A DNA stretch of 64,000 nt from a virus. This document shows, in pieces, positions 44,167 to 55,325 of this stretch (within the stretch, counting starts at the first letter, position 1; every line of letters starts with the position of its first letter). The position numbers were made by a program, and so were the translations under genes. The stretch is from positions 1-64,000 of the IMG/VR virus record IMGVR_UViG_3300036781_000418; one strand, written 5' to 3'. The notes under the pieces are model-generated. The model was given only the letters and a program-made list of their open reading frames with translations. It searched no databases and was not told where the DNA came from.

Positions 44167-44195
44167 ATAAATAGGACACTTGCGTGTCCTATTTT
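44167..44195 (+). terminator. Terminator overlapping a late promoter
   Basis: ATAAATA (44167-44173) runs into AGGACAC (44173-44179), loop TTGC, GTGTCCT (44184-44190), then ATTTT. RNA from upstream would terminate; RNA begun at the late box would start near the loop and escape the hairpin. Confidence 0.7.
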
Positions 44196-44207
44196 GGTAA
44201 ATAGCGA

Positions 44208-46487
44208 ATGACTATCCTCCGCCGCCTTAACGAAGGCATCGATCACGTCGACGATCTCCCAGTCGACCAGTTCATCCAGATCATCTCGACCCTGAAGGAC
44301 ATGCGTCTTTCGGAGAAGCTGGACGGCTCAAACCTGTGGGCGGGCGTCGACGATCAAGGGAAGGTGTTCATCTCCCGTGAGGGTAAGCGGAACAACGCCA
44401 AGCGGATGTACGCGCCAGAAGACTGGGCGAAGGTCGGCAACAACAACCAGTTCATCGCCGCCACGGCCGCCATCATCAACCAGCAAGCTATCTTTACCCA
44501 GTGCCTGAAGCCTGGTCAAATGGTCGAGCTTGAAGTCCTGTACGGCAACCAACCGAACACCGTCGTCTACAACAACGCGTTCAACTTGATCGCCGTGTTG
44601 CGTGGCGTCGAGGACACACCGTTGGGCGTCGCCACCTCGCTGGCCGCGGCCCTGAAGGACAAGACGGCCGACGTTAGCGTCAACCTCGTCTCCAGCGACG
44701 ACGGTGAAAACCTGAAGATGGTCCTGACGGACGCGAAGTTCCAGTTCATCACCCCGAAGACGTTCGACGCCAAGAAGCTCGAGCACGGTAAGCTGAACGC
44801 CGAGGTCAAGAAGTTGCAGGACTTTGCCGCCAAGAAGTCCACCATTGCTGGGTACACGAACGCCGAGCTCGCCGCGGTCAACCTCAACAAGGTCCCGAAG
44901 GAAGAGCGCGACGCCGCCAAGTCGGCCCGTCAAGAGCTGCTTGACACCTTCCAGTCCGACTTCATCCAGCCAATCAAGGCCCTCCTGCTCGACACCTTCA
45001 TCGGTGGTAGCCGTGACGGCGCCGAAGGTGTCGTCATCTCCAACCCCAACGATGGCTCCCAGTTGAAGCTGGTGGACAAGGAGAAGTTCACCCAGCGTAA
45101 CGTGGAAGTCCAGCAGGAACGTGCGAACCTGCAAGGCGCCGTGATGACGACCGACCAGAACGCTGACCTAGCAGCCCGTGGCGGCCTGATGGGTGAGCTG
45201 AAGATTATGTTGGCCGAGCTGCTGGGCAACCGCAACATGGCCCGCGGCGCCGAGTTGAACAAGGTGCTGGCCTCGTTGAAGGCACAAGACGTCCCAGCCG
45301 CCGTCCAGAAGCTGGCGGACCAGCTCCAAGTCGACGACTACCTAGCGATCCGCAACAAGGCGATTGCCTTGACGTCCGCCACACAGGACAAAGTCGCGGC
45401 CGCCCTGAAGGAGTTCAAGGGTCAAGTCCAGGCTGACACGACTGGCAAGAAGCTTGGTCAGGACAACGTCAAGCGGACGTTGGTCACCTACGCTGAAGTC
45501 AACAACCGCCTGAAGTCGTTGGTCGCCAAGCTCAAGGGTGCGGAGGACATGCGTGGCATGGTCAACGCGATCTACGGCCCAGCGATCACCACGTACTTCG
45601 AGAAGCGGATTGAAGCACAGCAGGCGAACGAGGCGCTCACCGAGAACAAGGGTGAGCAGGACATGATCAACCTCAAGAACCTGACACCGTTCATCGTGAT
45701 CAACTGCTACCTTGCCACCCTGTTCATGACGATCATCTGCATCAAGGAACAGGACAAGCTGGCGATGCGCAAGATCGCGGACCGTTCGAACTTCAGGCTC
45801 AAGGACTTCTCCCACAACATGTCGCCGCTGAACTTCTGGGGCTACATCTTCTGGCGGGCCTCGAAGGCGGACGTCAAGAAGACGCTCGGCAAGGAGACCT
45901 CGGCGAAGCTGCACACGATCACGAAGAACATCCCAGTGATCTGGTGGCGGACCATGCACCAACAGCTGGCCCAACACAGCCAGCTGAAGTTGGACGTTCC
46001 AACCACCCAGCGAATGTTCAAGCTGATCCTTGAATACTCGGGAATGAGGACCGCCCGTGTAAATAGACTGATCAATGGGGTGCTGAGCTGGGATGATCAG
46101 GACTTCGATCAGAAGGTTGAGCTGCTCAACGACATGTACCTGTACGGTCAACAGTTCCTCCCAACCTCATACCTCTACAAGCGTGTTCGAATCATCCAGT
46201 CGAACATGCTGCTCAATGCAAACGGAGTAAACGACATGGTGGTCACCGAAGGACGGCTGTTGAAGCGCCTGATTGGACTGACTGAAGACGGTGAAGGCGA
46301 CGGCATGGCTGGGGCCGAACCCTCTGGTCAGCCAGCCGGCATGACGGCGACGACGGACATCGCGCCGCTCGCGATGCCACTCGGCACGACCGTCCACGTG
46401 GTCAAACGCAAGCGCAACCCTAACATCAAGCGCCTCAAGTTCAAGTACAAGGATCCAACCCAGAATGAAACTCCTAAAAACGATTAA
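44208..46487 (+). CDS. 759-residue late protein with nucleotidyltransferase/ligase motifs
   Basis: Residues about 30-300 show the order of covalent nucleotidyltransferases (DNA/RNA ligase fold): motif I 'EKLDGSNLWAG' with Lys 37, an acidic strand 'MVELEVLYGN' near 107 (motif III), 'AEGVVISNPNDG' near 272 (motif IV) and 'LKLVDKEKF' near 286 (motif V). The rest is helical, with one hydrophobic segment near 495-512 and a basic C-terminus. Related large proteins occur in T4-like phages (DUF6267 type). N-terminus 'MTILRRLNEGIDHVDD' recalls a capsid-targeting tag. No Shine-Dalgarno is seen; late promoter upstream. Ligase activity is not established. Confidence 0.7.
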   Translation: MTILRRLNEGIDHVDDLPVDQFIQIISTLKDMRLSEKLDGSNLWAGVDDQGKVFISREGKRNNAKRMYAPEDWAKVGNNNQFIAATAAIINQQAIFTQCLKPGQMVELEVLYGNQPNTVVYNNAFNLIAVLRGVEDTPLGVATSLAAALKDKTADVSVNLVSSDDGENLKMVLTDAKFQFITPKTFDAKKLEHGKLNAEVKKLQDFAAKKSTIAGYTNAELAAVNLNKVPKEERDAAKSARQELLDTFQSDFIQPIKALLLDTFIGGSRDGAEGVVISNPNDGSQLKLVDKEKFTQRNVEVQQERANLQGAVMTTDQNADLAARGGLMGELKIMLAELLGNRNMARGAELNKVLASLKAQDVPAAVQKLADQLQVDDYLAIRNKAIALTSATQDKVAAALKEFKGQVQADTTGKKLGQDNVKRTLVTYAEVNNRLKSLVAKLKGAEDMRGMVNAIYGPAITTYFEKRIEAQQANEALTENKGEQDMINLKNLTPFIVINCYLATLFMTIICIKEQDKLAMRKIADRSNFRLKDFSHNMSPLNFWGYIFWRASKADVKKTLGKETSAKLHTITKNIPVIWWRTMHQQLAQHSQLKLDVPTTQRMFKLILEYSGMRTARVNRLINGVLSWDDQDFDQKVELLNDMYLYGQQFLPTSYLYKRVRIIQSNMLLNANGVNDMVVTEGRLLKRLIGLTEDGEGDGMAGAEPSGQPAGMTATTDIAPLAMPLGTTVHVVKRKRNPNIKRLKFKYKDPTQNETPKND

Positions 46488-51551: not shown

Positions 51552-51848
51552 TTAGGCCTCAGCTGATACGTTCGACGACGAGCTCGAAGCCGTGCCGTCG
51601 TGGCAGGATGACTTCTTGCAGTGCACCTTAATCTTCGTGGAACCCTTGATCGCGACGGGCTGGTTCTCCACGAACACGGTGGACGTGAAGTTGCTGATGA
51701 AGACCGTCGGCGGGTAACCGTCATGTCCCGTCGTCGTGGGGTGTCCCTTGGTCGTGATGGCGATGTTGTTGGCGAAGACCGTGCTGGCCCCGTCCGCTGA
51801 GAAGTCCCCACAACTGACCTTGTCGCCGATTCGAACTACGTTGCCCAT
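51552..51848 (-). CDS. PAAR-repeat tail tip protein
   Basis: 98 residues from ATG 51848; its first base is shared with the stop of the upstream lysin gene. 'GNVVRIGDKVSCGDFSADGA', 'ITTKGHPTTTGHDGYPPTVF', 'VFVENQPVAIKGSTKIKVHC' are PAAR-type repeats that form the sharp cone on the tail spike (T4 gp5.4-like). His and Cys residues may bind a metal at the tip. The neighbouring hydrolase fits a membrane-puncturing complex. Confidence 0.85.
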   Translation of the reverse strand: MGNVVRIGDKVSCGDFSADGASTVFANNIAITTKGHPTTTGHDGYPPTVFISNFTSTVFVENQPVAIKGSTKIKVHCKKSSCHDGTASSSSSNVSAEA

Positions 51849-53452
51849 TAGAGTGCCTTGATTGCCGCGGTGATGGAGGTGACACGGTTGCTCCAGCCCT
51901 TGGCGAAGCGCGCCTGAGCTGGGTTGGCCGCGACGATGGAGTCGTACGTCTTCTGACGGGCGGCGGCGTACTGGTCCACCTGCTGGTCGTCCGTGCCTGA
52001 GAGGTTGGCCGACGCCTTGATGGAGTTTGCACGTGAGACGCCGTGGTTGACACACGTGTCGAAGTGCATGGCCGCCACCTTCAAGGAGAACGCGTCACAG
52101 CCACCAGCCGTCCAGTAGCGGTTGTAGTAGACGGACTTGGCGTCGGTCAGGGCGATGGACTTCACGTCCGTCTGACGGTTCGCGTTCTGCGAGACGCCGT
52201 ACTTGGTGAGACCGCCGGAGTCGACTGGGTCGTTCACGTAGCCGACCTTCTTTTGCTGGGCCGCCGTCGTGATGTTTCCGGCGATGACGTCACTGTCCGC
52301 CTCGTTCCAGAAGCCGCCAACCTCGTAGTGCATGGACAGCGTGAAGGACGTGTCAAAGTCGGCTGGTGCGGTGGACGGGTCCTGTGGTGGTTGCGGTCCC
52401 TGTGTCGGATCAGGGTTGGCCACTGGGTCGTTCGGGTAGTCGCCACCGAAGGTCTTGCAGCTTTCCGCCTGACGAGCCGCCACCTCGTCCTGCGTCAGTG
52501 TCGCGGTGGACGTGCGTGGCGTAGGGTTAGGGTCAGTCGGCGTTCCGTCTGGGTTCGTACCTGGCGAAATCTTCAAGGAACCGTTGATGTACGGCTCAGG
52601 GTCGACGAAGGTGCCGTTCGGCAGCTTGCACTCGAAGTGAAGGTGCGGGCCAGTGACGGCGCCCGTGGCCCCTTCCTTACCGATCACCTGCCCAGCCATG
52701 ACCTTCTGCCCAGTGCCAGCGTAGCAGGCGGCCAGGTGGTTGTACGTCGTGGTGCAGAGCACGGTGCCGTTCGGCAGCGAGTGCTGGACGTGAACGCGCA
52801 GGCCGTAGCCCGTCGCTGGGTCGCCACCTGACAAGATGACCTGACCGTCGGCTGCGGCCACCACGTCCACGATCTTGTTTCCAGGCAGGACCATGTCAAT
52901 GCCGGTGTGGGCCTTCATGACGTGCGTGATTGGGTGCAGGCGTGGGCCGTACTTCGAGTTGACGATGCCACCAGGTAGCGGGGAGATGAAGCTGATGCTC
53001 GAGTTCTCGGAGGTGGAGGACCGTGGCACCATGACGAAGGTGCGTGAGTCGACCAAGTCGGTGCCGTTCATCGCCTTGATCTTCACGTTGATTGTCTCAC
53101 CGAAGCGCGAGTCAAAGGTGCCGCTCAAATGTCCAGCCGTCGTGTCGAAGGTCAGGCCCGCGATCGTCGTGGTGGCGGTGCCGTTCTCACTCAGCTCCCA
53201 AACCGTGGCTGAACCACTGGTCAGCGTGAACGTCACGTCCACCTGCCCAGTGCCACTCACCGGAATCGTGGTGTTCTCAATCTTGCCAGTCGGCGTGTCG
53301 GTAGCATCGTCGTGCAGGCCCGTCATGTTCCCACCACGCCGTGCGTAGCAGTCTACGTTCTCACCTGGGAGAATCGAGTTCTCCTCACCTTGAGCCTCAG
53401 TAGAGCTGCCAGATAGGTTGGTGGGCTGCGGTGCTGGTGGGCAGCATGACAT
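51848..53452 (-). CDS. Tail-associated dual peptidoglycan hydrolase: M23 peptidase plus GH108
   Basis: 534 residues. A beta-rich N-terminal part (about 1-155) is followed by an M23/LytM zinc peptidase (about 155-300): 'HTGIDMVLPG' gives the HxxxD, 'GPHLHFEC' the HxH. A Pro/Thr linker leads to a GH108-type muramidase (about 365-534): 'MHYEVGGFWN', 'DPVDSGGLTKYGVS', and the peptidoglycan-binding part 'AAMHFDTCVNHGVSRA'. Both peptide and glycan bonds could be cut. Next to the PAAR gene it is the likely gp5-like tail lysin; use at final lysis is less likely as no signal peptide is present. Confidence 0.85.
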   Translation of the reverse strand: MSCCPPAPQPTNLSGSSTEAQGEENSILPGENVDCYARRGGNMTGLHDDATDTPTGKIENTTIPVSGTGQVDVTFTLTSGSATVWELSENGTATTTIAGLTFDTTAGHLSGTFDSRFGETINVKIKAMNGTDLVDSRTFVMVPRSSTSENSSISFISPLPGGIVNSKYGPRLHPITHVMKAHTGIDMVLPGNKIVDVVAAADGQVILSGGDPATGYGLRVHVQHSLPNGTVLCTTTYNHLAACYAGTGQKVMAGQVIGKEGATGAVTGPHLHFECKLPNGTFVDPEPYINGSLKISPGTNPDGTPTDPNPTPRTSTATLTQDEVAARQAESCKTFGGDYPNDPVANPDPTQGPQPPQDPSTAPADFDTSFTLSMHYEVGGFWNEADSDVIAGNITTAAQQKKVGYVNDPVDSGGLTKYGVSQNANRQTDVKSIALTDAKSVYYNRYWTAGGCDAFSLKVAAMHFDTCVNHGVSRANSIKASANLSGTDDQQVDQYAAARQKTYDSIVAANPAQARFAKGWSNRVTSITAAIKAL

Positions 53453-53760
53453 TACTTCGAGGCTCCTTGGGCCGGCGCTGAGGCCGCTTCAGGCGGGGCG
53501 ACGGGCGCTTCGTAGAACTTGACGAGCTCAAGCGTGATCCGCTCAAGCTGACGCTGACGATCTTCGGACGCGGCGATCCACGTGGCCAACTGCGATTGGT
53601 CGGCCGTCTTCACGTCGATCGGGTCTGGGTACGGTGGTAGCTTCTTCTGGTCGGCACTGGCGGTACGCACCACGTAGTTGGTCTCCACCACGACTTCCTT
53701 CTCAGGGACGGTGGCGCAGGCGGACAGGGCGATGGCGAGGATTAGGATGAGGCGCTTCAT
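53452..53760 (-). CDS. o-spanin (Rz1-like lipoprotein)
   Basis: 102 residues with a lipoprotein signal: 'MKRLILILAIALSACATVPE', lipobox LSAC with Cys 15, then a Pro-rich periplasmic part. It overlaps the i-spanin stop by ATGA. Spanin pairs fuse inner and outer membranes at the end of lysis of Gram-negative hosts. Confidence 0.82.
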   Translation of the reverse strand: MKRLILILAIALSACATVPEKEVVVETNYVVRTASADQKKLPPYPDPIDVKTADQSQLATWIAASEDRQRQLERITLELVKFYEAPVAPPEAASAPAQGASK

Positions 53761-54197
53761 TGCTTGGCTCCGTCGAGCTCAGCTTGACGCTGGCTACGTG
53801 CTTGTTGGATGGCGTCAACCGTCAGCTGCAGGACTGGAGAGAGCTCCACCTTGTTCAGCGGGTTGTTCTTTTGGATGTTGATGGCCGACTTGAGTGTGTT
53901 GATCGTCACGGCGTCCTTGGCCTTCAGGGACTCGAGCGTCTTGACCGCGTCGGCCGAACGCTCTTGGTCCGCCTGCATCTGACGAATCGTCTCTTGGTTG
54001 GTCTTGTTGGCTTGGACGGCGGTGTCCAGCTGCGCGCTGATCGTAGTTACCTGCGCCTCAGCCGTCACGCGAGCCTCATGTTCCATGGTCAGCTTGAACC
54101 ACTGCCAGGTAAAGGCGCCGCCGATGGCGAGCACAATCAGCCCAATGCCGATCAACTTGGCGTTACCGCCGGTGAAAAGGGAAAGAAGAAAGCCCAT
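53757..54197 (-). CDS. i-spanin (Rz-like)
   Basis: 146 residues: one transmembrane segment at about 14-34 near the N-terminus, then a long periplasmic coiled coil ('EAQVTTISAQLDTAVQANKT' and on). Directly followed by the o-spanin gene, which settles the pair. Its start codon lies in the 3' arm of a 12-bp perfect hairpin with the ribosome site in the loop; a late box abuts the 5' arm. Confidence 0.82.
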   Translation of the reverse strand: MGFLLSLFTGGNAKLIGIGLIVLAIGGAFTWQWFKLTMEHEARVTAEAQVTTISAQLDTAVQANKTNQETIRQMQADQERSADAVKTLESLKAKDAVTINTLKSAINIQKNNPLNKVELSPVLQLTVDAIQQARSQRQAELDGAKQ

Positions 54198-54228
54198 ATC
54201 AGATCTCCTATGATATGGGCTTATTTAC
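54190..54228 (-). promoter_or_regulatory. Late promoter merged with start-codon hairpin of i-spanin
   Basis: On the minus strand GTAAATA (54228-54222) leads into the 12-base 5' arm (54222-54211), loop with TAGGAG, and 3' arm (54201-54190) containing ATG. RNA begun at this box would start inside the 5' arm and could not close the full hairpin. Confidence 0.65.
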
Positions 54229-54245
54229 GTCTATTCCTTAGAATG

Positions 54246-54252
54246 TATTTAG
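54246..54252 (-). promoter_or_regulatory. Late promoter box (minus strand)
   Basis: CTAAATA on the minus strand, 48 bases before the i-spanin start. RNA from here would contain the whole start-codon hairpin. Confidence 0.6.
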
Positions 54253-54254
54253 AC

Positions 54255-54476
54255 TCACGTGACCAACGCCGACCCCGTCTGTGGAGAGCTCCACGTGATG
54301 GTGATTTCGTTCAGTCCAGGATCAGCGACTACCTTGAGTGGTAGCACCTTGAAAACGACCCCATCTAGTTCCAGCCGTGTGTCGACGTTTACGAGTCGGC
54401 CGAAGTTGTGCGTGATAATCCAGGTGTCGCTTGGCGACTCTGGTGTGAAGGTAAAGTTCTGCAGTCCAGCCATCAT
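54255..54476 (-). CDS. HNLG-type single-domain structural protein 1
   Basis: 73 residues from ATG 54476, overlapping the previous stop. It is one copy of a domain marked by 'SDTWIITHNFG' and a C-terminal 'ITITWSSPQTGSA', found repeatedly in this block. Probably a small fibre or adaptor subunit, from shared sequence and place. Confidence 0.65.
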   Translation of the reverse strand: MMAGLQNFTFTPESPSDTWIITHNFGRLVNVDTRLELDGVVFKVLPLKVVADPGLNEITITWSSPQTGSALVT

Positions 54477-54691
54477 GAGCACCTTGCGAAGCCGCTCTGG
54501 GCGTTCGTGAACGTGACCGTAGCCGTGTTCACGTCGACGAAGGTGATGGTTGGCAGCACCTTGACGAGCTCAGAGTTTAGGTTGATGTAGACGTCCATGA
54601 TCGGGTAGCCACCGATGTTGTGAACTACCGTCCACGTCGTGTCCGCAACGTCCTGGGTATGGGTAAACTGAGTTGCGACGCGGTAGGTCAT
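54473..54691 (-). CDS. HNLG-type single-domain structural protein 2
   Basis: 72 residues: 'TTWTVVHNIGGYPIMDVYIN' then 'TATVTFTNAQSGFARC'. Second stand-alone copy of the domain, directly following the two-domain gene, with one-base overlap. No ribosome site of note; translation is probably coupled. Confidence 0.65.
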   Translation of the reverse strand: MTYRVATQFTHTQDVADTTWTVVHNIGGYPIMDVYINLNSELVKVLPTITFVDVNTATVTFTNAQSGFARCS

Positions 54692-55318: not shown

Positions 55319-55325
55319 TATTTAG
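55319..55325 (-). promoter_or_regulatory. Late promoter box (minus strand)
   Basis: CTAAATA on the minus strand, 26 bases before ATG 55293. Confidence 0.7.

Follow-up and report, generated by a model that had tools for sequence, protein, structure and literature searches.

A late-promoter hairpin as a candidate translational mask of the i-spanin gene in a giant phage, and its recurrence at other late promoters

The start codon of a putative lysis gene in a giant phage lies inside a long, perfect hairpin that overlaps a candidate late promoter, which raises the question of what the hairpin does there. The locus lies in a window of 64,000 nucleotides (positions 1-64000 of a 342,591-bp virus record, 57% G+C), and the remainder of the record was read in stretches. 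Analysis of the minus strand revealed a perfect 12-bp stem with a 9-nt loop at 54190-54222 (5' arm AAGCCCATATCA, 54222-54211; loop TAGGAGATC, 54210-54202; 3' arm TGATATGGGCTT, 54201-54190), set in the sequence ...GTAAATAAGCCCATATCATAGGAGATCTGATATGGGCTTTC.... The loop holds the Shine-Dalgarno motif TAGGAG (54205-54210) and the 3' arm contains the ATG of the i-spanin gene (54197-54195). A TAAATA box is located at 54222-54227, with the spacing to the ATG (24 nt) that is most frequent in the genome, and the 5' arm begins on the last A of this box; farther upstream a second box occupies 54246-54251. A sequence-only reading had described this anatomy, and its placement of the stem, loop, start codon and both boxes was correct to the base. 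The full stem had a predicted energy of -16.5 kcal/mol. What stands out in this leader is a perfect stem in precise register with the box; the fold of the leader as a whole was unremarkable (z-score -1.5 to -1.7). No Rfam covariance model matched the hairpin at E ≤ 1.

The hairpin precedes a cassette of minus-strand lysis genes. The i-spanin candidate (53757-54197, 146 aa) was assigned from synteny and homologs in relatives, with a weak PHROG match, and its stop overlaps by 4 nt an o-spanin candidate (53452-53760, 102 aa) recognized by its sequence, including the lipobox LSAC, synteny and homologs. The adjoining endolysin gene (51848-53452) combines peptidase M23 and glycosyl hydrolase 108 domain matches. 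An N-terminal membrane segment, an overlapping lipoprotein gene and an adjoining endolysin are the features of a two-component spanin, identified here from sequence and synteny, with weak family profile support. Syntenic contigs with the gene order tail genes, i-spanin, o-spanin, endolysin were reached via the neighbouring tail gene, and stretches of six of them were read. Searches with the i-spanin protein against viral contigs and phage records returned no relatives, and no DNA similarity to phage records was found.

We examined whether TAAATA behaves as a promoter element. The box occurs 26 times in the window compared with 2.8 expected, and 111 times in the record, where together with its complement it is the most over-represented hexamer of the genome; 94 of the 111 boxes lie at least partly outside predicted genes. 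Distances from box to next start codon cluster at 21-28 nt with a mode of 24 (a range of 21-31 nt was also obtained), and a second, smaller peak at 4-5 nt was present in this record and six relatives. The latter suggests a leaderless class that starts transcription at the A of the AUG, for which this spacing is expected. A conserved gene of 759-781 aa has TAAATA 4-5 nt before its ATG in five phages (window 44198-44210, plus strand; G003 233280, G004 156558, G005 68663 and G007 49122). The record encodes a gp55-family late sigma factor (record 113344-113826; phrog_234, E = 9e-30), and homologs with 58-72% identity were present in eight of nine relative contigs. Because the box is over-represented, stands at set distances before start codons and is accompanied by a gp55-family sigma gene, TAAATA is very probably a late promoter, and the late class assigned to it in the sequence-only reading is supported.

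In T4 late promoters the box lies about one helical turn upstream of the transcription start (PMC2988020). An A/T preference at the 5th and 6th nt after the box, together with the 4-5 nt spacing peak, placed the start 5-6 nt after TAAATA, which for the near box predicts position 54216 or 54217. RNA begun there would lose half of the 5' arm, as had been proposed, and would retain six A/U-rich pairs with a predicted energy of -2.1 kcal/mol. Opening costs computed for the region -14 to +6 around the ATG were 18.7 kcal/mol for read-through RNA, 19.4 kcal/mol for RNA from the far box, and 6.3 or 5.5 kcal/mol for RNA from the near box; the predicted probability that the AUG is unpaired in read-through RNA was 0.00. 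The same calculation for T4 gene e gave a reduction from 16.3 to 4.7 kcal/mol, so that the logic of gene e suggested for this leader is borne out at the level of prediction. Other T4 controls behaved similarly (gene 49, 15.6 to 3.3; I-TevI, 14.7 to 5.2; I-TevII, 13.1 to 0.4; segB, 16.5 to 5.7 kcal/mol), soc changed little (8.0 to 7.3 kcal/mol) and three arbitrary T4 control genes gave values of 2-4 kcal/mol. Within this genome, 11 of 15 hairpin leaders differed by 8-19 kcal/mol. RNA from the far box would carry the whole hairpin, as foreseen; the further idea that the balance between the two boxes sets spanin timing was unsupported, because the start region is predicted to be no more open in far-box RNA than in read-through RNA and both boxes belong to the same class.

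The genes upstream indicate which RNA such a hairpin would close. The nearest is a co-directional tail-fibre-like gene (54255-54482, minus strand; sequence and profile match), whose stop codon is separated from the hairpin by 32 nt, a distance at which a terminating ribosome would probably leave the stem closed. The upstream co-directional tail genes have their own TAAATA boxes, at 55319-55324 (a source of late read-through RNA), 58058, 60687 and 61396. No early promoter stood out near these genes, and sigma-70-like sites were at about chance level. The RNA to be silenced at the i-spanin gene is therefore probably itself late, and the expectation that the hairpin divides early from late RNA was not supported: because the upstream genes are tail genes that look late, it would separate read-through RNA from RNA made at the gene's own promoter. 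Spanin made before lysis is not known to do harm, and for this reason a mask has a less evident purpose here than at lysozyme.

Our preferred reading, to which we give a probability of about 0.7, is that the hairpin is a translational mask removed by the adjacent late promoter. In RNA reading through from the upstream tail genes, or begun at the far box, both arms would be present and the i-spanin start codon would be hidden. When a gp55-type polymerase acts at the near box, RNA would begin inside the 5' arm with six weak pairs left, the ribosome site would be exposed, and spanin translation would depend on the gene's own promoter. We infer the RNA start site, the closure of the hairpin in the cell and its effect on spanin output; as a prediction, the operation of gene e logic at the i-spanin gene is well supported.

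An alternative that we regard as unlikely is that the hairpin acts mainly as an intrinsic terminator, ending transcription of the upstream tail genes and overlying the next promoter so that new RNA escapes it, with the start-codon overlap reflecting compactness. The stem contains G+C and is followed by TTTCTTCTTT, with six T in the 8 nt past the stem, and some siblings of the hairpin consist of a stem and U tract between box and ATG. Terminators were scored with a standard formula, for which the cut-off is 0. High scores were obtained for siblings at 89567 (14.0), 90696 (6.0) and G003 178933 (30.5), and the hairpin at G003 140611 is also terminator-like. Other hairpins lie between the last tail gene and the i-spanin gene in some relatives (L057, L065, L066 and L070), and a second peak of hairpins was found 41-70 nt upstream of boxes, as with ordinary terminators. 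In contrast, the spanin hairpin scored a borderline -1.9, under the usual cut-off, and contains a start codon; the window terminator scan, with a loop limit of 8 nt, does not list it. The U-rich stretch past the stem (54180-54191, minus strand), a possible weak terminator tail, is i-spanin coding sequence, and its MGF residues and TTT codon are common to a relative without the hairpin. Most siblings lack a U tract, many hold a ribosome site, and mutual exclusion between upstream and overlapping hairpins was not significant (P = 0.24). Masking is thus preferred on the grounds of the spanin score and a U-rich tail that is coding and partly shared with a hairpin-less relative, and the hairpin may in addition terminate some of the read-through RNA.

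To examine how often a hairpin overlaps a box in this way, we counted stems in register, defined as a 5' arm beginning -6 to +4 from the end of TAAATA. Stems of at least 7, 9 and 10 bp were found at 19, 14 and 8 of the 111 boxes, compared with shuffle means of 0.5, 0.02 and 0.01, respectively; the number of independent hairpins is one lower, because the palindromic box pair 160812/160834 has one hairpin in common. This palindrome (TAAATAGGG...CCCTATTTA, record 160812-160839) carries a late box on each strand, the two pointing toward one another. With genes called by a simple in-house method, such that per-gene counts may shift slightly, stems of at least 8 bp ending near the start codon were present at 9 of 61 genes with a box compared with 5 of 381 without (odds ratio 13, P = 1e-5), and at least one of these five box-less genes (22034) has a close variant of the box, TAGAATA, in front. 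Most box-hairpins in this genome lay within 60 nt of the end of a co-directional gene (15 of 17 versus 28 of 66, P = 0.0008); in a seven-genome set with cruder gene calls there was a trend only (P = 0.22). A second example in the window, on the plus strand at 44169-44194, is an 11-bp stem that overlaps the TAAATA at 44168 and is terminator-like. The genes masked or overlapped in this genome encode a baseplate wedge subunit, a tail tube protein, virion proteins, a tail fibre, a NinI-like phosphatase, a RusA-like resolvase and a homing endonuclease. Two other loci in the record were also recorded. At 295396 a TATAAT-like sequence is followed directly by a terminator-like hairpin of 10 bp and then an ATG, so overlap of this kind may extend to promoters of sigma-70 type. 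Near 152795-152853 a second gene resembling lysozyme, with 57% identity to the G003 endolysin, has its own late box and a hairpin that starts 10 nt after this box and that late RNA would keep.

We extended these analyses to the relatives. Box-hairpins of at least 7 bp numbered 10 in G003 (0.7 expected), 4 in G004 (0.13 expected) and 4 in G006 (0.17 expected), with one each in G005 and G009 and none in G007; in 42 kb of Xanthomonas phage XacN1, none of 24 boxes had such a hairpin. In the seven-genome set, the predicted opening cost changed by at least 7 kcal/mol in 17% of box leaders, compared with 2.2% of shuffled leaders. The genes masked or overlapped include an endolysin and a homing endonuclease in G003 and the resolvase ortholog in G006. 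The box-hairpin device is not specific to the spanin gene, and recurs across the genome and its relatives. Individual hairpins turn over: seven ortholog pairs with exact stems were shared compared with 2.4 by permutation (P = 0.012, a mild excess), often with unrelated arms, as between the baseplate wedge genes of G000 and G003, and strong masking defined by an energy threshold showed no excess conservation among orthologs over permutation (P = 0.39). The i-spanin box and this hairpin were absent at the i-spanin genes of the relatives examined. One of these (L075) keeps CATATCATAGGAGAT before its i-spanin gene without box or stem, and for this reason the spanin mask looks recently acquired in this lineage. 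Homing-endonuclease genes or look-alikes often have a box-hairpin leader or a strongly masked start (G000 90696; G003 140611, 296081, 19397 and 53686). Three more distant phages (L017, L030 and L038) have the same layout with a Shine-Dalgarno in the loop, for example TAAATAgggttataggagcataacccagATG in L017.

These data bear on two further alternatives. That the spanin hairpin is a functionless chance inverted repeat in a compact leader would agree with its lack of conservation at the i-spanin genes of relatives, but we consider this very improbable given that box-hairpins are enriched far above shuffles in this genome and several relatives. Even less credible is that a protein controlling the late promoter uses the dyad as its DNA operator, since, although the dyad touches the promoter box and T4 I-TevI represses its own late promoter (PMC2988022), arm sequences differ from gene to gene at nearly every locus, with pairing and position alone in common and no shared operator site.

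Masking by a promoter-removable hairpin is proven in T4. In gene e the start region lies in a helix in long RNA, and the late promoter overlaps the 5' arm, so that late RNA lacks it (PMC3014915). The loss of the 5' part is described for RNA from both T4 late promoters; the structure is reported to cut lysozyme synthesis 100-fold (reviewed in PMC3014915 and PMC2988022). The i-spanin leader resembles gene e in belonging to a lysis gene with two late boxes in front, a promoter over the 5' arm and near-identical predicted energies. As in the T4 device, the start region is predicted to be sequestered, the late promoter to remove the 5' arm, and a gp55-type sigma is encoded. In contrast to gene e, where early read-through RNA is masked, the upstream genes here look late, the far box keeps the 5' arm, the stem is longer and more regular, and the box is TAAATA and never TATAAATA, which has no occurrence in this record. 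The arrangement is also known at T4 49, soc, I-TevI, I-TevII and segB and at Aeh1 mobE (PMC3014915, PMC2988022). The endolysin, Holliday-junction resolvase and homing-endonuclease cases of the jumbo clade match gene kinds masked in T4, the latter two resembling the 49, I-TevI and segB group, whereas many more promoters are involved here, including those of baseplate, tail tube, tail fibre and virion protein genes. A scan of T4 with loops of up to 10 nt gave no hits at TATAAATA; with loops of up to 20 nt the e and soc leaders appeared, and the total of six did not exceed the shuffle range for 6-bp stems. A search of the available literature returned no description of the layout outside T4-related phages.

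Masking in T4 has so far concerned a few late genes, treated as special cases in which early expression would be dangerous. That a sizeable minority of late promoters share this geometry in distantly related giant phages, among them promoters of ordinary structural genes that themselves follow apparently late genes, suggests a wider purpose, in which translation depends on which promoter made the RNA. Tentatively, and at slightly less than even odds, about one-sixth of late leaders across the clade may be shut in read-through RNA, at the level of translation, termination or both, and open only when transcribed from their own promoter. The approach provides a sequence-only way to find such leaders, together with many natural test pairs. 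If the reading is true, a hairpin over a late start would be a general insulation device, by which even late genes each have their output determined by their own promoter.
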